From the NCBI GenBank assembly GCA_015231955.1, contig JADGAN010000006.1:1-64000 (forward strand): 64,000 bases of DNA. Reading direction: 5' to 3'. Both the position numbers and the translations under genes were made by a program. This document shows, piece by piece, positions 6,909 through 31,005 of this stretch. The notes under the pieces were generated by a model. It had not been told where the DNA came from. It ran no database searches and saw nothing but the letters and a program-made list of their open reading frames with translations. Within the stretch, counting starts at the first letter, position 1, and each line of letters begins with the position of its first letter. This stretch comes from Oligoflexia bacterium. Lineage in GTDB: Bacteria > Bdellovibrionota > Bacteriovoracia > Bacteriovoracales > Bacteriovoracaceae.

Positions 6909-9524
6909 CTAGCGCTTTAAATTAAGGAGTGAGTAGATATAGTTAAAATCGAGCGAGGCGCGAACCGCATCGGCCAAACGATCGTACTCCTCTTCCATCG
7001 AGTATTTTGCGCTACTTTGCCTTGGCCTGCCTTGCAGTTCACTTAAGAGATGGTGCCTGAAGAGATCATTTTCAAAGATGCCGTGAAGGTAGGTGCCCCA
7101 CACTGTTGCGTCTTGGTTGCAATAACCTATAACACGATCGCCTGATTCAATAAAAGGATAGGCGCTATCTCCACAGGGGATCGTCTCTCCATGGTGAATT
7201 TCATGGCCGACCACTTGATGTTTACTTCTTGTCAGTGTGGCGCTGGTACGCTTTAAAATCTTTTCATGCATAATGGTGGTACGTAAGGGGAGCAGGGAGA
7301 GCCCTTCGGCCTTTTCTATAGGTGATTCTAGATGGAGTGGATCGAAGACCTCTGCTCCAAGCATTTGCAGCCCACCACAGATGCCAGCAATCATCGTTTG
7401 GGGAAATGCCTTAAGCTGATCTTCAATTTTTTTCTGCAGGCCACTTGTCTTTAAAAAGTGCAAATCGTTTAAAACACTTTTACTGCCACCAAGGATGATG
7501 AGGCGTGGTGTTCCGAAATCTTCGGCATTGTCGACAATTCGCAGCTGCACGTCGGGTTCAATTAAGAGTGGATCGATATCGGTAAAGTTGGAGAGATAGG
7601 GTGTGCGAATAAAGATAATATCGATAGTGTTGCTATTACTGATGACATTTGTTGTAAGCAAGCGATTGTTTTTAAGCGCGAGCGAATCCTCCAAAGGAAT
7701 GCGTAATTGCGGTAAGTGTGGAATGATGCCAATCAGTGGAGTCTCTGTCATTGACTGCAGGTAAGCAATTCCGGGAGTAAGGAGCGCAGTGACTCCTCGA
7801 AAATTGTTGATGATCAGTCCCTTTAACAATTTTCGTTCCCACTCATAAAGTGTATTGACGGAGCCAATGAAACTGCCAAAGAGGCCACCACGATCGATAT
7901 CCCCTACCAGCAGTACCTTGGCCTTTGCATATTTGGCCATTCTCATATTGACGATATCGTTTGCTTTCAAGTTGACTTCAGAGACACTACCGGCCCCCTC
8001 TAAAATAATCAACTCATATTCACTGGCAAGAGAGTCATAGGCCTTGGCCACTTCGGAAAAGAGCTCCTGTTTTTGCTTAGTATAATCACTAAAGTGAAAG
8101 TGGCCTAGTGGTTTTCCGTGTAGAATAACTTGGCTTTTCTCTTTCGAGCTGGGTTTAAGCAAGATGGGGTTCATGCGTGCATCCATCGCAATTTGCGCTG
8201 CCTCTGCTTGCACTGCTTGTGCTCTTCCAATCTCTTCCCCTAAAGGAGTGACAAAGGAGTTTAAAGACATATTTTGTGCTTTGAAAGGAGCAACCTTAAT
8301 GCCGTCTTGCTTAAAGATACGACAAAGTGCGGTCACGATTAAACTTTTTCCGGCATCAGAACTGGTTCCTAAAATCATAAGTGCTGGTGTATGAGAACGA
8401 CTGGAGTGAGGAGAGTGAGTGGTTTTACTCCGCTTTGAGGTGGACAGAGGAAGGTGTGCTAAAAGTTTTTCATTCTCTTCTCTACTTTTTATGGCAATGC
8501 GAATGTGGCCATCGCTAAGGCCATCAAAGCTTTTGCAATTGCGAAGGACAATCTTATGAGAGGTGATAAACTCTTTGACGATGTCGTCGCTGCTGCGATT
8601 AGGAAAATGCAAGAGCAGAAAATTTGCTTCATTAGCATAACAGTAGGGGAGGTGGGCAAAATCTTTGCGTAGCTCACTCATCTCTTGCCGTGTACGCTTG
8701 AAGTAATCGAGGTCGTTACTTAAAGCATAAGTTGCAGTTTCTGCCGCTAGTTGATTTAAGTTCCACGTTGGAAGGTAGGCATTCATGGTGATGGCGATAG
8801 CAGGTGTGGCCACTGCATAAGCGATACGCATTCCTGGAATGGAGAGCACTTTCGTAAGCGAGCGCGAGACGATGATGTTATTGACGCTATTTAAGAGTGG
8901 TAGCAATTCAAGAAAGCTCTTTACCTCCCAAGGGGTAAAGTAGATGAAGGCCTCATCCACTACAAAGAGTGCATGAGGAAAATTTTTTGCCACACTTATA
9001 ATCTCTTCCGGATTTAAAACATTGGCGGTGGGATTATTGGGATGACAAAGGAAAACCAGGCACTCCTCTTGGGGATACTTTAAAAGTGTATCGGAGAGTT
9101 GAGTAGCATCGAGCTTAAAGTTTTGCTCTTTCGGAGGATATAACGAGACCAGCTCCATCTTTTGCAACCTTGCACTCTGCTCATAAATAAAGAAGGAGGG
9201 CCTGGGAATGATTGCTACCTTGCGACTAAGCGCCCGGGTTAAAGTGAAGAAAAATTCACTAGCGCCATTAGAGAGGATGATAGCGTCTTCACTTACTTGG
9301 TGGTGTTTGGCAATGGCACTCTTTAACTCTTTATACTCGGGATCGGGATAGCGAGCAACTTTTCCAATATTGGCGATAAGATGCGAGCGAAACCAATCGG
9401 GGAATCCTAGAGGGTTAATGTTCACTGAAAAATCTAAAAGCATCTCTTCGCTTATATTATATTGTTTGGCAATGGAGCGAAGTTGCCCACCATGGGGATG
9501 GTAGTGATAATGGTACTGATTCAT
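6909..9524 (-). CDS. Fused threonine-phosphate decarboxylase (CobD) and cobyric acid synthase (CbiP)
   Basis: One 871-residue polypeptide with two enzymes. Residues 1 to about 355 are a fold-type-I PLP enzyme close to CobD/HisC: SNGASEFFF, HPNNPTAN, VVDEAFIYF and the PLP-lysine motif SLTKVLSIPGMRIAYA; CobD makes (R)-1-amino-2-propanol phosphate from threonine phosphate. After a Ser/Thr/His-rich linker (about 356-378) comes a full cobyric acid synthase: ILGTSSDAGKSL (ATP loop), KAQNMSLNSF, EKSQVILHGKPLG, and a class I glutamine amidotransferase domain with nucleophile Cys in AGICGGLQMLG. CbiP amidates four side chains of adenosylcobyrinic diamide. The start at 9524 overlaps the stop of cbiA by 4 bp. 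The join is in one continuous frame with no internal stop. Confidence 0.92.
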   Translation of the reverse strand: MNQYHYHYHPHGGQLRSIAKQYNISEEMLLDFSVNINPLGFPDWFRSHLIANIGKVARYPDPEYKELKSAIAKHHQVSEDAIILSNGASEFFFTLTRALSRKVAIIPRPSFFIYEQSARLQKMELVSLYPPKEQNFKLDATQLSDTLLKYPQEECLVFLCHPNNPTANVLNPEEIISVAKNFPHALFVVDEAFIYFTPWEVKSFLELLPLLNSVNNIIVSRSLTKVLSIPGMRIAYAVATPAIAITMNAYLPTWNLNQLAAETATYALSNDLDYFKRTRQEMSELRKDFAHLPYCYANEANFLLLHFPNRSSDDIVKEFITSHKIVLRNCKSFDGLSDGHIRIAIKSREENEKLLAHLPLSTSKRSKTTHSPHSSRSHTPALMILGTSSDAGKSLIVTALCRIFKQDGIKVAPFKAQNMSLNSFVTPLGEEIGRAQAVQAEAAQIAMDARMNPILLKPSSKEKSQVILHGKPLGHFHFSDYTKQKQELFSEVAKAYDSLASEYELIILEGAGSVSEVNLKANDIVNMRMAKYAKAKVLLVGDIDRGGLFGSFIGSVNTLYEWERKLLKGLIINNFRGVTALLTPGIAYLQSMTETPLIGIIPHLPQLRIPLEDSLALKNNRLLTTNVISNSNTIDIIFIRTPYLSNFTDIDPLLIEPDVQLRIVDNAEDFGTPRLIILGGSKSVLNDLHFLKTSGLQKKIEDQLKAFPQTMIAGICGGLQMLGAEVFDPLHLESPIEKAEGLSLLPLRTTIMHEKILKRTSATLTRSKHQVVGHEIHHGETIPCGDSAYPFIESGDRVIGYCNQDATVWGTYLHGIFENDLFRHHLLSELQGRPRQSSAKYSMEEEYDRLADAVRASLDFNYIYSLLNLKR

Positions 9525-13283: not shown

Positions 13284-14093
13284 ATGAAAACAATAGATCA
13301 AATGGAAAATAAAAAAGTCGCGATTGTTCTCTCCTGCTTTGGATCGGCCATCGATCTTCAAAGCTATGAAGCGTTTCGAGCTCACATGGGAGAAAATTTT
13401 CAGACAATCCCTATCTTTATCGCTTATACCTCGAACATCGTGATAAAAAAACTGCGCAGCGCGGGCCTTGCTGCAAATGTTAAACACCTGAAACAGGTGC
13501 TTTCTGAGGTGGAGAGCGCGGGATTTCAACACATCATTGTCTCCTCGGTCTATCTCTTTCCCACAGAGGAGCATGAGCGTGTAAAAGAGACGGTGGATGC
13601 TTTTGCACACCTCACCTCTTCCAAGGCAAAATATTATGTGACCGACTCTATTTTGAATGCAGTGGAAGATCTGCACGCTTTTGTCAGTGACATTTGCCAT
13701 CCAGAACATCAGCAAGAGGCACAACTTTTTATAACTCATGGTTTTTTCCGTTTAGATCTTAGAGGCGCTAGCTCCTATTTTTATTTAAAAGATATTTTGG
13801 AACGCCTCTCTCCAAATAATATCTTTGCTTCCCTTGAAGGCCCCTACGCCTACTCTTTACAAAAAGAGTTCATCATCAACAGTTGTCGCATTCGCAATCT
13901 TTTAGAAGTCAAAATTGTTCCACTGCTCTTGGTGAGTGGCCACCACCTGGTTAGCGATATTCGAGAGATTGCCACAGAACTGGAAGCAGAGGGATTAAAG
14001 GTAAAAATTGTAGAAAAAAATCTTTTATCCATGCCTATTGTCCTCGCGATTTTAAAAGCGCAGCTAGAGAAGCATCTAGAGGATATTCAATAA
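13284..14093 (+). CDS. cbiK: Sirohydrochlorin cobaltochelatase, CbiK type
   Basis: This chelatase inserts cobalt into sirohydrochlorin at the start of the anaerobic route. The 269-residue length fits CbiK rather than the short CbiX. Features are IVLSCFGSA near the N-terminus, a metal-binding His in FITHG at about residue 152, SLEGPYAYSL, and VPLLLVSGHHLVSDI with a second His pair. It is the only plus-strand gene within the cobalamin cluster: it starts 11 bp from cbiH and its last 59 bp overlap the 3' end of the precorrin-2 dehydrogenase gene on the other strand. No good ribosome-binding site precedes either ATG (13284 or 13302). Confidence 0.88.
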   Translation: MKTIDQMENKKVAIVLSCFGSAIDLQSYEAFRAHMGENFQTIPIFIAYTSNIVIKKLRSAGLAANVKHLKQVLSEVESAGFQHIIVSSVYLFPTEEHERVKETVDAFAHLTSSKAKYYVTDSILNAVEDLHAFVSDICHPEHQQEAQLFITHGFFRLDLRGASSYFYLKDILERLSPNNIFASLEGPYAYSLQKEFIINSCRIRNLLEVKIVPLLLVSGHHLVSDIREIATELEAEGLKVKIVEKNLLSMPIVLAILKAQLEKHLEDIQ

Positions 14094-18301: not shown

Positions 18302-19402
18302 TTAAATAGTATTCAGAACTGTTCCATCAAAATCGATCAACACACAAGAGATCGAAAACTTATTTTCCACATACTCCCTCATCTTTCGATGCGCCTCTTG
18401 ATTTAAAAGTGCTGCAAAGGCCTCCAAGAGTCCACACTCTTTGGCCACTTCTAATACCCGCCTTGCTGTGGGTGCATCCCCTAATGCATGAATCATTTTC
18501 GATTCACCACCGACCTTTTCAAAAAGAGACGCCAAAAACTGCAAATCAATGACACTCTCCTTGATATAGGTATTCATCTTTCCTTGGGCAAGTTTACTCA
18601 TCTTCCCCACCATACTGACCACCACCATTTGTGAAAAAATTTGCAGAGCACCCTCTTTTAGCGCCACATCCACACGATCACCACACTGGATGAAAGCGTG
18701 CTCAGGGAGAGTCGGGTAGAGTTTTTTTGCCGCCTCTTCACTTCGGCCACCTGTACTTAAAACAATGGAGGGTGAGTTTTCACTCTTGGCAACCGCAATG
18801 GCATCCACCAAAAAAGCTTTATATGCGGCCGCGGAAAAGGGGCGCACCACTCCTGTAGTTCCTAAAATAGAGATGCCGCCTATAAGCCCTAAGCGAGCAT
18901 TGGTGGTTTGCTTCGCAATCTCCTCTCCGCACGGAACGGAGATGGTAATCTTAAGTCCTGGGCAGCTCCCTCGCTCTTTGCACTCTTCTCTCACCATTTC
19001 GATAATATTTTTTTTGGGAACAGGATTGATGGCACTCTCACCAAGCGCAAGGCCAAGCCCACGCTTAGTCACCTTTGCCACTCCAATTCCTCCCAAGACC
19101 TCTACTACTCCCTCTGTTGCTAAAAACTCCACCTCTGCTACAATCTCTGCGCCGTGAGTGCAATCGGGATCATCTCCGGCATCCTTAATAACCGATGCAA
19201 AAGCTTTACAACCATTTTCACTGAACTCTAGTCCACATCGCACAAGCTGAAAGCTTGCCTGCTCACGATTGGGAAGTGTAATCGTGATCTTTTGCAAAGT
19301 GCTTTCCTGCAGGAGCAACACCTTTGTTGCCGCTTTAGCGGCCGCAGCGGCACATGCTCCAGTGGTGTATCCTGTTCTCAGTTGTTTTTTGCGATGATTC
19401 AT
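18302..19402 (-). CDS. cbiD: Cobalt-precorrin-5B C1-methyltransferase
   Basis: CbiD is the C1 methyltransferase of the anaerobic route. The 366-residue protein has LRTGYTTGACAAAAAKAA at the N-terminus, KDAGDDPDCTHGAEI near residue 73, GGIGVAKVTKRGLGL, and ISILGTTGVVRPFS, all diagnostic. It is the first gene of the minus-strand operon. The ribosome-binding site is weak. No riboswitch in the minus orientation precedes it; the cobalamin riboswitch just upstream lies on the opposite strand and faces away. Confidence 0.95.
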   Translation of the reverse strand: MNHRKKQLRTGYTTGACAAAAAKAATKVLLLQESTLQKITITLPNREQASFQLVRCGLEFSENGCKAFASVIKDAGDDPDCTHGAEIVAEVEFLATEGVVEVLGGIGVAKVTKRGLGLALGESAINPVPKKNIIEMVREECKERGSCPGLKITISVPCGEEIAKQTTNARLGLIGGISILGTTGVVRPFSAAAYKAFLVDAIAVAKSENSPSIVLSTGGRSEEAAKKLYPTLPEHAFIQCGDRVDVALKEGALQIFSQMVVVSMVGKMSKLAQGKMNTYIKESVIDLQFLASLFEKVGGESKMIHALGDAPTARRVLEVAKECGLLEAFAALLNQEAHRKMREYVENKFSISCVLIDFDGTVLNTI

Positions 19403-19422
19403 TTTAAATCTTTACAATTATC

Positions 19423-19452
19423 TTTACGAGAAGAGCGATCTTCCCTTATGCT
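19423..19452 (+). promoter_or_regulatory. Candidate promoter reading into the cobalamin riboswitch
   Basis: TTTACG (19423-19428), an 18-bp spacer and TATGCT (19447-19452) are a moderate sigma-70 match. The predicted start near 19459 falls at the first base pair of the riboswitch, which makes this orientation of transcription plausible. Confidence 0.35.
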
Positions 19453-19460
19453 TATTTTGA

Positions 19461-19619
19461 TTTGTGGTTCGAGGGAACTCAGTGCGAATCTGAGACTACT
19501 CCATAGCGGTAGTAGCGGTATAAGGAACGAAATTCATCATATCCACTGGGCATTTTCTGGGAAGGGATGGAGAGTAGAAAAACTTTAGCAAGGCCTTTAG
19601 TCCGAAGACCTGCCACAAT
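19461..19619 (+). ncRNA. Cobalamin (adenosylcobalamin) riboswitch, plus strand
   Basis: The plus strand reads as a complete btuB-like cobalamin aptamer. The closing stem is TTGTGG (19462-19467) with CCACAA (19613-19618). Then come GAGGGAACTCAGTGCGAATC (the conserved core), a stem-loop with AGCGGTA, CACTGGGCATTTTCTGGG-like kissing-loop region, and the B12 box TAGTCCGAAGACCTGCC ending at 19614. It binds cobalamin and normally represses transport or synthesis genes. Here the transcript would run away from cbiD and antisense into the gene at 19703-20644; the next plus-strand gene starts at 20752. Downstream, AAAAGG/CCTTTT (about 19661-19678) can form a short hairpin without a clear U-run. No minus-strand aptamer was found. 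Confidence 0.88.
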
Positions 19620-19702
19620 TATAAGAAAATTCACTTTCGAAGACAACTCCTAATTTCGAAAAAGGTAGAAACTCCTTTTCCGTCTGTGGTTGTGTTGATG
19701 AT

Positions 19703-20644
19703 CTATGCCTTCGTGAACTTTTTTGCCGAGCAATGGGCATCTTTGGTTAGTAGTTTTAAAAATTCATGGTAATTTTTGCGTGCCTGCTTCTGGTAATCGC
19801 GGCCGCGATTATACTGTTTAATTGCTTGATAGGGTTTTTCGATATCTTTTGTGAGCGAGAGGCCTCCCATCACAAAGAGTGCATGAGAATTATATTTTAT
19901 TAACGAGGCCACATTTTTCATCGAGAGTTTTTTGACTTTTTCTTGCGGATAGTTTGATGACAAGAGTAGCGCTTTTTCCATGACATGGCGATACTCCCAA
20001 CTTGAGATGCGCCAGCGATAGTTCCATTGTAACACTCCAAAATCAGCATGCTTTAAATTGCACTTTTTATATTTGGCCGCAATTTTTTTATCTTTCTTTT
20101 TAGAGAGGAGCAAATCTTTTTTTATACTTTTTCCTGGCAAAGATTTTGTGGTAATTGCTAAGCGGTTTTTGCAATTGGGCTGAACAATCACTCCTTTGCT
20201 TGGCAATCCGAAATTACTCTCTCTCTTCCAAAAAGTTAAAAAGAGCGCTGCAAATTTGATAAAGGGACGATCCCACTTATAATCAAAAAAGGGAGCAAAT
20301 TCGGCCCACACTTTTCCAATAGGAACTTGGTCGCATAAATCTAGTGCACTTTTGATTTTTGAATACTTACCGCGACTGTCATTCTCAAACAAGGCCAAGT
20401 TATCTCCTGCAGAACCAATATCTAAATGCTCCATTAAAAAGGGTTGATTCAAATCATCATTGAAAAAGATATCGCTCTCTATTTCTCCTAATTCAGGCAT
20501 GGCATCTGCATCTGCCTCTGCCTCTTCCTCTTTTTCTGTTACTTCTCCCAGAGAGGATGTTCTAGCACGATCAGCACTTGAACACCCTATAAGCATAAGA
20601 GTAGAAAAGCAGAGCAAAGCAAAAATAAAATTAAAATACTTCAT
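19703..20644 (-). CDS. Lipoprotein with lytic-transglycosylase-like domain
   Basis: A 313-residue lipoprotein: MKYFNFIFALLCFSTLMLIGC puts the lipidated Cys at residue 21. An acidic linker (about 30-60) follows. The rest shows the three signatures of the SLT lysozyme-like fold in order: WKRESNFG (candidate catalytic Glu at about 142), FGVLQWNYRW, and IKQYNRGRDY. This suggests cleavage of peptidoglycan glycan strands from a membrane anchor. The motifs are degenerate, so enzymatic activity is inferred. The frame extends to 20773, but the ATG at 20644 gives the signal peptide. The gene is divergent from the kinase gene at 20752, and its 3' end is opposite the transcript expected from the cobalamin riboswitch. 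Confidence 0.65.
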   Translation of the reverse strand: MKYFNFIFALLCFSTLMLIGCSSADRARTSSLGEVTEKEEEAEADADAMPELGEIESDIFFNDDLNQPFLMEHLDIGSAGDNLALFENDSRGKYSKIKSALDLCDQVPIGKVWAEFAPFFDYKWDRPFIKFAALFLTFWKRESNFGLPSKGVIVQPNCKNRLAITTKSLPGKSIKKDLLLSKKKDKKIAAKYKKCNLKHADFGVLQWNYRWRISSWEYRHVMEKALLLSSNYPQEKVKKLSMKNVASLIKYNSHALFVMGGLSLTKDIEKPYQAIKQYNRGRDYQKQARKNYHEFLKLLTKDAHCSAKKFTKA

Positions 20645-20751
20645 TGTATACTTATCGGCAAACAGAGGGGAATACTTAAGTATTGAAAATGGCCTGAAAT
20701 TGTGTGAAAGTGAAACCTCCTTTTCCGTACTAATTGCACTAAAGGAGTGGC

Positions 20752-21795
20752 ATGAATACGAATAACAAATCACCCTGGGATTTAGAGACCAAATACTTCT
20801 ATGCGCTTACTCCCGAGGTTATTGATCACTCGCTGATGGCACGGGGAGTGCGTCCCTGCGGCCGTGTCTTTGCTTTAAACAGCCTGGAAAATCGTGTCTA
20901 TGAGGTGGAGGTTTCCCCTGCACTACTTTTGCGCCCTCCCTTTTCCCCCGATTCGGTGGTCGTAAAATATTATCGCCCAGGACGCTGGAGTGAGGAGGCA
21001 ATTTTAGAAGAACACGCTTTTTTACAAGAGCTGGTAGAGCTAGAAATTCCAGTGATCGCCCCTTTGACCTTTGAAGGAAAGACGCTCTTTACCTGCCCCT
21101 CCACCGACTTTTATTACGCCATTTTTCCTAAAGTTCGCGGTCGCCTCAAAGATGAGCTAAATCCTTCTGAAATTTCCGAGATCGGTCGTTTGATTGCAAG
21201 AATTCATCTTGCTGGTGCGACCAAGAAATTTACCGCCAGACCAACCATGAATCCGCAAAACTACGTTGATGTGCACTTTAATCACCTCTCGACTGTAAGC
21301 TTTTTGCCCCAGCAAACACTTGCTTACTACCTAATGGTGGCCAAACAACTCTCACAAATGATCGCTCCCTTATTTCACCACCTAAGTTACCAGCGCATCC
21401 ATGGTGATCTCCATCGTGGCAATATTTTATGGACGGCCAAGGATGGGCCTTTTGTGGTGGATTTTGACGACACCGTGTTTGGGCCACGCGAACAAGATTT
21501 ATGGCAACTCTTTCCTGGTCGTGACTCCTATGCGCGAAAAGACCAGGAGCTCTTCTTAGAGGCCTATCATTCGATGGCCAAAGAGCAGATTTCACTTCCA
21601 CCACTGCTGATTGAAGCACTTCGAAGCATGCGCATGATTCACTTTAATGGGTGGATTGCGAAAAGATGGAACGATCCGATCTTTAAAAAAATTTATAGCG
21701 CTTTTGATTCGGAAGCGTACTGGGAAACAGAACTCCTAGGACTAAAAGAACAGATTGGATACTTGCAAGATTTTATTCAAAACGATAGTGCATGA
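20752..21795 (+). CDS. srkA: SrkA/YihE-type stress-response protein kinase
   Basis: A 347-residue aminoglycoside-phosphotransferase-fold kinase. It starts LETKYFYALTPEVIDHSLMA, typical of SrkA (YihE), with VVKYYRPGRWSEEAILEEH (ATP-binding Lys), IHGDLHRGNILW (catalytic Asp) and VVDFDDTVFGPREQDLW (metal-binding Asp). SrkA is a Ser/Thr kinase that counters stress-induced death in Escherichia coli. AAAGGAG lies 6 bases before the ATG. The last 23 bp overlap the convergent acetyltransferase gene. Confidence 0.88.
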   Translation: MNTNNKSPWDLETKYFYALTPEVIDHSLMARGVRPCGRVFALNSLENRVYEVEVSPALLLRPPFSPDSVVVKYYRPGRWSEEAILEEHAFLQELVELEIPVIAPLTFEGKTLFTCPSTDFYYAIFPKVRGRLKDELNPSEISEIGRLIARIHLAGATKKFTARPTMNPQNYVDVHFNHLSTVSFLPQQTLAYYLMVAKQLSQMIAPLFHHLSYQRIHGDLHRGNILWTAKDGPFVVDFDDTVFGPREQDLWQLFPGRDSYARKDQELFLEAYHSMAKEQISLPPLLIEALRSMRMIHFNGWIAKRWNDPIFKKIYSAFDSEAYWETELLGLKEQIGYLQDFIQNDSA

Positions 21796-27956: not shown

Positions 27957-30522
27957 ATGGTGATCACTCCTAATCAGAATAAGAGCAGAAAAACAGAAAC
28001 AGTGGAGTTTAACTATTCCCGGCCATACTATAGTAAAGAGTTACGCCAATTTTTCGGATTTGAAGAGATTATGGCAATTAACTATGGTGATGAATCACAA
28101 AAGGGAAAGATCACATTTACCTCCCATCACAGCGGTCATCCAGATCAAGGAGGAGTTGCTTTGGCCGGGAAAATCAGAGAAGAGAAAATATACTCTTTTG
28201 ATCAGATTAAGGAGATCGATCCCACTTACTATTCCACCTATCAAGCGGAGTTTGCCTCTTCCTTAAAAATGAATGTGGATGAGATGTTTTCTCATTCGTT
28301 GATCGATTATGCGAAGAAGCGCCCCACTCTCGACTATGAAAAATTATTTTCTTTGGCCATTCCGCTGGAGAAAAAAACTTTTACCTTTAGTTCCTCTCCA
28401 ATCCTTCCCTCTTCCGGCGCCTATTTAGTCTGTGAAACATCTTCGCGCACAGATCGCTCCTCCAAAGATTTGTCTCACTATCAACTCCTTGAACGCAAGT
28501 GTAATAGCTATGGTTTTCCACAAGAGGAGAAAGAGAGTTTTTCAAGCGGGCTTGTTGGTTTTCAGTGGAGTGGTGCTAGTGAACGAGCGGTCTTCTTACC
28601 AGAGACGGTCTCTAAAACCACTTCTTACCTCTATGCCGAAGGACTTTACTCTTCACACATCTATAATCGGAGACAAAGAATTGAAGTTACCATTGATAAT
28701 AAAAGACAACAGCAGCAAAATTATCAATATAACGATAAAGGGCAAATGATCGTTAAGGCACAATTTCTTGACAACAGTCGCTACAAAACAGAGAAATTTC
28801 AATACGACTCTTTTGGAAATATGATTGAGATGACAACTCCCATGGGAGGAAAGCACTCACAAACTTTCGACGCTTTCGGAACACGTCTCCTCACGCAGAA
28901 AAATCCCTTGGGACACCAGGAGCAATCGTTTTACAAGTGTGCAGAAGTAAATTGGCCTAAGCAATTGACCTCCGCCGGATATGAGTGCCAACAACACCTC
29001 AATAAGATTGCCTTCAAGGGGAGCAATGGAGTTTGGAGCTATTATGCTTACGATGAACTTGGCCGCTTGGTCGCCTCCTTTACCGCAAGCACCCCGAGTG
29101 AACTCACCACCTACCAATACCTGCGCGCTACTGAAGGCACCTGGAATCGTATTTTATCCACAACTCATCTTCCCGACCACTCCCCATATCAAAAAGCATC
29201 CTTTTACGATTTAAAAGGAAATCTCGTGGCAGAGGTAACGACAGCAACAGAAGGGCGCTCTAAAGTTCGAAACTATACCATTACCAATCGCAACGACCTC
29301 CCAGTAGAACAATTTATGCCTTACTTCCTCACTAAAAGTGTCAAGGATTCATTCACAAGCAGCACCATTGCACTTCCTGAAGAGGGAACAAAGTCGACAC
29401 TTTTTTCCTATGATGCTCTTGGAAGAAAAAAGAGTGAAATTCATCCTTCCAAAAAGAGGATCTATTATCAATATAGCGCAGGAACCATTGCTGAAAAAGA
29501 ACAGCTCACTTCTGCACTAACCGGACAAGAAAGTATGGTCACCAGAGAAAAGACAGTCGATTTTAGCAACAAGGTTACATCAGCAACCAACGAATTAGGC
29601 CACTCCACTATTTTCAAGCGAAATGCTTTAGGCCAACTTACCTCTCTGGTGGATCCGAGCGGACAGATCAGCAAATACAACTACAATGGCCTTGGTCTCA
29701 TCATTACACTAGTTTCTCCCACTGCAGGAATGAATGCTTATCAATAAACAGTTAATCGATCTAAGCGGAATAACAGTAGGAGAGATCTCCTACCACTACG
29801 ATCTTCTCTCAAGAATTGTGCAAAAAGATCATGGCCTGCAAGCATACATCACCTACTCCTACGACGTAGGAGACTCCCAAAAGTGCACATCCTCCAATAC
29901 TAACCTATCCATAGGAAAATTAACCAAGGTAACGGTTGCCAACAAAACGCCAATTACAATCGATTATGGATATGATGAGCGAGGAAATACCACCTGTATT
30001 GTGAAAAATTTTAGTGGAAGAAGTTACAAAGAAGAGTCAAAGTATGATATTTTAAATCGTATGTTGGAATTAACAAACCCTAATGGTCAGAAGGTCTCAT
30101 ACCGCTACAAAGAGGATTTAACTCCGTCCTCTATTGATGGTCTCGTTCATTCAATCACCTATAATGAGCGTGATCAACTTGAATCAATCCTTTATAACAG
30201 TGCAAGCGGCCTTAGCACCAACTATGCTTACGACCCTAGCACACTGATCCTCACCAATATCCGTTCACAAACTACCAACACGGCCATTCAAGATATCTCT
30301 TACCAGATCAATTCGCGAGGCCATATTGAACTCATCCACGATAACATCAGCGACCACCAATCACTCTCCGCAAAGTATCAGTACGATGAACTAGGACAAC
30401 TCTTAAGCTATGAATCGCAAGGAAAGATCAGCAATTATGCTTATGATCCCACAGGAAATTTCACCTTAAACGAAGATTTTTCCAATAGTATCGACTACAC
30501 CCTGTCTCTTACTTCACTTTCC
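27957..30522 (+). pseudogene. RHS/YD-repeat protein gene, truncated and frameshifted
   Basis: Two overlapping frames (to the TAA at 29745-29747, and from about 29734) together encode a large RHS protein with many YD-type repeats: YQYNDKGQMI, FQYDSFGNMIEMTTPMGG, YYAYDELGRLVASF, YQYDELGQLLSYES and YAYDPTGNFTLNED. RHS proteins are secreted or surface shells that usually carry a variable C-terminal toxin. Here the N-terminus has no signal or anchor, a frameshift falls at about 29734-29747 in the middle of a repeat, and the conserved RHS core end and any toxin are missing: the second frame runs straight into a transposase fragment at 30523. IS5 remnants flank both sides. It is almost certainly not functional. 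Confidence 0.8.
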
Positions 30523-31005
30523 ATGAAGCATGGGTTTATGTACCTTGTAGCGATTATAGATTGGTTTAGTCGTTATGTGCTTTCATGGAGATTGAGCAAC
30601 GATATGGGAGTTGAGTTTTGTATTGAGGCACTCGTAGAGGCCATCGTAATGAATGGAGTGCCTATGATTTTCAACACTGACCAAGGGCCGCAGTTCACTG
30701 CTACTGCCTTTGTAAAGACTGTAGAAGCTAACGGCATCCTCATGAGCATGGATGGACGAGGAAGGGCGCTTGATAATGTGTTTATTGAGAGACTATGGAG
30801 ATCATTGAAATATGAGGATGTTTATTTGAATGGCGGCCATACTGATGGCAGAGAAGGGAGAGAGAGGCCGATACAATATTTCAGTTTCTATAATTATGAA
30901 AGGCTTCATCAATCCCTGGGTTACAAGACGCCATATCAGATTTACTTTGAAGGAAGGCATAAATCCGAAGAAGGAAATCCGGCAACCCAGCTATGCCAAT
31001 TGTAA
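30523..31005 (+). pseudogene. IS3-type (OrfB) transposase C-terminal fragment, fused in frame to the RHS gene
   Basis: From MKHGFMYLVAIIDWFSRYVL onward the frame is an rve/DDE integrase core of the IS3 group: FNTDQGPQFTATAF carries the second Asp, DNVFIERLWRSLKYEDVY the Glu, and FYNYERLHQSLGYKTP the typical tail. The first catalytic Asp (normally in a TDITYI-type motif just before) is absent, because RHS sequence replaces it. The left end of the element, OrfA and the N-terminal half of OrfB are gone, so a deletion followed insertion. The fusion ORF (29734-31005) has no internal stop. Confidence 0.8.

Follow-up and report, generated by a model that had tools for sequence, protein, structure and literature searches.

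A plus-strand cobalamin riboswitch aptamer facing away from a cbi operon is probably an orphaned btuB-type leader

The cobalamin riboswitch aptamer that faces away from the cbi operon of an Oligoflexia bacterium is probably the orphaned leader of a btuB-type cobalamin riboswitch of its family, in which the parts that act as a switch are decaying. We analyzed a window of 64,000 nucleotides, which is part of contig C81 of a 5.6 Mb genome. When the window was searched using Infernal cmscan, the only Rfam match was to RF00174, covering the full length of the model (positions 1-189) and exceeding the gathering (curated) cut-off of 31.5 bits (Table 1). The match lay on the plus strand, and a permissive Infernal search of positions 18500-21500 detected no minus-strand RF00174 match for cbiD even at E ≤ 5. 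The earlier note had placed a plus-strand riboswitch here, heading into the 3' end of an opposite-strand gene and more than 1.1 kb from the next plus-strand gene, and this two-strand search and the distances agreed with it. The aptamer is 45 nt from the start codon of cbiD, 71 nt from the 3' end of the convergent minus-strand lipoprotein gene and 1,121 nt upstream of the next plus-strand gene, srkA, and no B12-related gene lies directly behind it on the same strand. The 69-bit score is higher than those of the two further RF00174 matches in the genome, each of which has an intact L5 and a gene in cis (cbpA/cbpB and cbiM, respectively). A hairpin-like inverted repeat, GAAGA-GCGA-TCTTC (window 19430-19443), is located between cbiD and the aptamer and could be an operator or a product of chance.

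Table 1. Features around the cobalamin riboswitch aptamer (positions in the window)
Feature	Position	Strand	Evidence or remark
cbiD, first gene of the cbi/cob cluster	18302-19402	-	PF01888, E 3e-82
Promoter-like TTGCGA-18-TACAAT, could transcribe the aptamer	19389-19418	+	9/12 consensus match
Cobalamin riboswitch aptamer (RF00174), lesioned	19448-19631	+	cmscan 69.3 bits, E 5e-15; plus strand only
P5/L5 lesion: CTAC TCC, then 9-bp tandem duplication; kissing-loop CCG reads CCA	19496-19520	+	locus comparison
First copy of the 9-bp duplication, ATAGCGGTA	19503-19511	+	
Second copy of the 9-bp duplication, GTAGCGGTA	19512-19520	+	
Promoter-like TTGTCT-17-TATAAT, at the 3' edge of the aptamer	19618-19646	-	10/12 consensus match
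Possible degenerate remnant of the L13/SD hairpin, TTTCGAAAAAGGTAGAAACTC versus GATTTTCGNGGGAGAAATC	19654-19674	+	local alignment
22-nt direct repeat (82%), left copy, flanking the lipoprotein gene	19662-19683	+	
Convergent ORFan gene for a lipoprotein (lipobox LIGC)	19703-20644	-	no Pfam/NCBIfam family
22-nt direct repeat, right copy, in the srkA leader	20707-20728	+	
srkA, next plus-strand gene	20752-21795	+	PRK11768, 324 bits (cut-off 194)

The fold of the aptamer is largely preserved, and corrinoid binding might still be possible. P1 (TTTGTGG at 19461-19467 with CCACAA at 19613-19618), P3 (CTCAG/CTGAG), GGGAA and the box AGTCCGAAGACCTGCC are present, and P2 is absent. The lesion lies in P5/L5, which reads CUAC-UCCAUAGCGGUA-GUAG, in contrast to CUGC-(C/U)CC-GCAG in the family. 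At this place the window reads CTACTCCATAGCGGTAGTAGCGGTA, in which CCG is replaced with CCA (CCAT versus CCGC) and a 9-bp tandem duplication is present. The CCGC of P5/L5, which holds the kissing-loop CCG and is missing from the window, is kept in 42 of 44 other RF00174 matches from the family, the phylum and the same genome, and both exceptions score under the curated cut-off. In a tested corrinoid riboswitch, mutagenesis showed that the C-C-G of L5 (C70-C71-G72) carries the kissing loop formed with L13; expression became constitutive upon mutation of L5 and L13 (PMC10653944). Note that the second copy of the duplication can re-form the CUAC/GUAG stem of P5, leaving an L5 of 12 nt; our reading of decay is based on the sequence and geometry of L5 together with the missing expression platform, and the P5 stem forms no part of its basis.

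In six relatives, the platform GATTTTCG-N-GGGAGAAATC or a close variant was found 4-23 nt past the aptamer, and ATG follows it immediately in five of them (loci L005, L006, L028, L030 and L031), giving the order aptamer, GATTTTCGNGGGAGAAATC and then the ATG of btuB. This platform is an L13 hairpin with the Shine-Dalgarno sequence embedded in it, and it is complementary to the CCC in L5. Behind the aptamer of the window, no match to the motif was detected within three mismatches. A gapped alignment to the platform was obtained just downstream of the aptamer (p = 0.024 at the expected place and 0.085 over 150 nt, compared with shuffles), in a stretch without a start codon. This alignment is no more than suggestive of a trace of the L13/SD hairpin, and the weakness of the remnant counts against the orphaned leader. 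Further, no terminator-like site was found between the aptamer and position 19793, matches to the L13 motif elsewhere in the genome were no commoner than those to a reversed-pattern control, and the plus- and minus-strand transcripts were not unusually stable (z = 0.59, -0.25 and -0.32). Thus, the aptamer is real, but the description of a complete cobalamin riboswitch with all hallmarks does not hold: P2 is missing, L5 is altered and the L13/SD hairpin is lacking. As a candidate for a small peptide gene behind the aptamer, we found only a 28-codon GTG ORF antisense to the tail of the lipoprotein gene, which was rejected as unsupported.

RF00174 matches were found in 82 of 129 genomes of the same family. 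At nearly all of the fetched loci, a same-strand ORF, mostly a TonB-receptor gene, lies within about 110 nt behind the aptamer, and the window was the only surveyed locus in which the same-strand gene is more than 400 nt behind. On the other side of the full-size aptamers in relatives is a gene for a binding protein of the BtuF type (seven of the eight tested matched PF01497). Wherever its start codon could be placed clearly, it lies 16-58 nt from the aptamer, and elsewhere the predicted ORF overlaps the aptamer; in genome G085, cbiM takes the place of btuF, 139 nt from the aptamer. The window shares with these loci the aptamer class, the box AGTCCGAAGACCTGC and the back-to-back placement beside a B12 gene, cbiD occupying the position of btuF. 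However, the relatives keep the CCGC of L5, GATTTTCGNGGGAGAAATC-ATG and btuB directly behind the aptamer, all of which are absent from the window. No btuB remnant was detected in 19600-20760 using tblastn (best E 0.12), and the best BtuB candidate of the genome, on contig C37, has a TonB-B12 score of 250 bits, under the model cut-off of 600, and no riboswitch.

None of the four other CbiD-bearing genomes of the phylum shows the arrangement of the window. In these genomes, the riboswitch is either upstream in cis, as is a weak RF00174 match ahead of the operon in the cbiD-bearing genome G138, or away from cbiD. The sole relative detected in one scan of a genome collection belongs to Elusimicrobia (52% identity) and has a partial cbiD with no nearby riboswitch. 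The earlier note had listed, as a finding that would speak against its interpretation, relatives whose element stands immediately ahead of a plus-strand B12 gene lost only here. In its general form, with btuB as the gene, this is largely what was observed, but not at a syntenic locus.

We propose that the ancestor possessed a divergent pair, in which a minus-strand cluster of B12 genes was adjacent to a plus-strand riboswitch followed by btuB or another B12-controlled gene; this plus-strand gene is suggested by analogy, the searched genomes having included no other species of the genus. The gene would have disappeared, moved or been displaced, and an insertion carrying the ORFan lipoprotein gene may have been the cause. 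The leader has lost the kissing-loop sequence of L5, the L13/SD hairpin and the start codon, so that the aptamer has nothing to switch on its own strand. Of the explanations put forward earlier, the orphaning of a leader when a transport gene was lost or inverted is favored by the btuF<-|RS->btuB geometry of the relatives, the missing btuB, the broken L5 and the absent platform. Against it stand the well-kept remainder of the fold, the re-formable P5 and the score of 69 bits, which could mean continued selection or recent orphaning.

CbiD is rare, being found in 5 of 129 genomes of the family and 5 of 369 genomes of the phylum; therefore, the cbi cluster was probably acquired here or widely lost elsewhere. 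The aptamer has probably been retained, at least as DNA, for the sake of the cbi operon: with no more than 45 bp between aptamer and cbiD, the promoter and mRNA leader of the operon must lie within the aptamer or beyond it, and in the gap upstream of cbiD (19403-19447) no sigma-70-like site of at least 9/12 was detected on the minus strand. The promoter-like site TTGTCT-17-TATAAT would start the cbiD mRNA near 19611, and the resulting leader of about 209 nt would run through the aptamer complement. The promoter sites given here are consensus matches and not mapped starts, but they offer a straightforward explanation for the persistence of this DNA. Between 19200 and 20800, 11 sigma-70-like sites were counted versus 3.5 expected from shuffles, and a TTGATA-16-TATAAT is present on the plus strand inside the lipoprotein gene. 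Within the otherwise minus-strand cbi cluster, cbiK (window 13284-14093) is on the plus strand, 5 bp from a divergent TP-methylase gene (13278), and it also overlaps the tail of the following gene; this arrangement suggests a local inversion. The window also encodes a protein of 871 residues (6909-9524) that combines a class I/II aminotransferase (CobD-like) with a cobyric-acid-synthase-like part (CbiA, GATase_3).

A functional antisense role, in which the plus-strand riboswitch RNA controls the cbi operon through B12-dependent convergent transcription or pairing with the cbiD leader, is unlikely. It would be consistent with the mostly kept aptamer fold, with the plus-strand promoter-like site upstream of the aptamer and with the location of the best minus-strand site just past it, from which the cbiD mRNA would carry the aptamer complement. 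Antisense cobalamin riboswitches such as that of pocR do exist (PMC9943018), and cobalamin is one of the over-represented classes among antisense-acting riboswitches (Serrano-Gutierrez and Merino, 2023; PMC9943018). Such placement is rare but already known, since 190 antisense and 10,769 sense cobalamin riboswitches are catalogued in public genomes (190/10,959 = 1.7%; PMC9943018). However, the logic at cbiD is backwards, because antisense control needs the plus-strand RNA to repress cbi at high B12, whereas a switch of the usual repressing type would produce RNA at low B12 and shut cbi off when B12 is needed. An activating corrinoid riboswitch is known, but it likewise depends on the kissing loop (PMC10653944), which is broken here, and behind the aptamer there is neither a terminator nor an L13 platform.

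Further, the described antisense cases have the riboswitch at the target's 3' end, whereas here it is at the 5' end of cbiD. In Listeria AspocR and the Clostridium acetobutylicum ubiG S-box, a riboswitch is likewise placed opposite a metabolic or regulatory gene, but it is 3' of the target and the ligand relieves antisense repression; the same logic applied to cbiD would be counterproductive. The earlier suggestion of a B12-controlled antisense or small RNA found no positive evidence, and conventional repression would turn cbi on at high B12. Control of the cbi operon from its 5' end by a plus-strand B12-binding RNA lying wholly inside the antisense cbi leader is, taken by itself, improbable. 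If true, and given a similar overlap at btuF in several related genomes, it would make a two-way element out of one riboswitch.

That the aptamer belongs to srkA, either through a 1.1-kb leader today or as a formerly adjacent leader that was separated when the lipoprotein gene inserted, is quite improbable. The direct repeat around the lipoprotein gene argues for former linkage: joining the DNA at the repeat would leave about 76 nt between the aptamer and srkA, and the CTCCTTT of the right copy can pair with the srkA Shine-Dalgarno sequence AAAGGAG. The two intergenic flanks matched equally well in only 0.1% of shuffled pairs (p ~0.001) and their match was equalled by none of 2,388 comparison windows, although 15% of shuffles contain an exact 12-nt repeat within 1.5 kb. 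On the other hand, srkA is present in 114 of the 129 family genomes, and no RF00174 match is listed near any srkA gene found in relatives. No B12 role is known for srkA. The very long leader for srkA considered earlier is thus without parallel among the srkA genes found in relatives, while the flanking repeat leaves room for a former short linkage of riboswitch and srkA. For the orphaned leader, the repeat hints that the insertion bringing the lipoprotein gene may have done the separating. The GC content of this gene is 38.5%, versus 46% for cbiD and srkA, and no homologue was found among the 129 family genomes; its earlier label as lytic-transglycosylase-like found no support in Pfam or NCBIfam. 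Elsewhere in the window (29734-31005), an ORF begins as a YD-repeat (RHS-like) sequence and continues as an apparent IS3-type transposase, probably reflecting an insertion into an RHS gene.

It is very unlikely that the lipoprotein gene is itself the target of an antisense-acting riboswitch in the sense of Serrano-Gutierrez and Merino, even though the geometry fits: as in the cases they described (PMC9943018), the aptamer heads toward the 3' end of a convergently oriented gene, a placement that holds for the lipoprotein gene but not for cbiD, and the gene contains a GC-rich hairpin at 19793-19812. In the validated cases, however, the function of the target fits the ligand, whereas the lipoprotein gene is an ORFan not known to be linked to B12, the B12 genes are on the far side of the aptamer and no platform is present. 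Moreover, the same survey deems most antisense matches on small genes without orthologues spurious (PMC9943018). A trans-acting B12-binding small RNA of the sponge type, like Rli55/EutX, is the least probable explanation; the aptamer stands alone with a possible promoter of its own, but no further RNA family match was detected over or behind it and nothing specific points to a small RNA.

As a relic, the orphaned leader shows how an antisense-oriented riboswitch match can arise from gene loss, and checks of L5 and L13 together with comparison of relatives separate relics from candidates. The overlap of riboswitches with divergent B12 genes in this family, a by-product of the analysis, may matter more than the relic and is the most testable lead. 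At loci L005, L006, L030, L033 and L067, the btuB riboswitch is 16-58 nt from the divergent btuF or overlaps it, so close that the promoter or leader of btuF must overlap the aptamer DNA; no consistent minus-strand position of a btuF promoter was found in the relatives. With leaders and promoters overlapping in this way, one aptamer could influence both directions, and two-way B12 control at the btuF/btuB riboswitch loci of the family is possible. At three loci from two genera (L007, L034 and L015), an RF00174 match lies near a gene that, annotated from sequence only, is acyl-CoA-thioesterase-like, directly ahead of it in L015; this is an unusual target for a B12 riboswitch. The cbpB-side riboswitch of the genome studied here (L055, 1924-2532) precedes a predicted 58-codon peptide gene and a radical SAM gene of the CbpB type (TIGR04163, 690 bits). 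Behind its aptamer come a long hairpin and a T run, an apparent intrinsic terminator, and the locus would be a B12-controlled radical-SAM peptide system.
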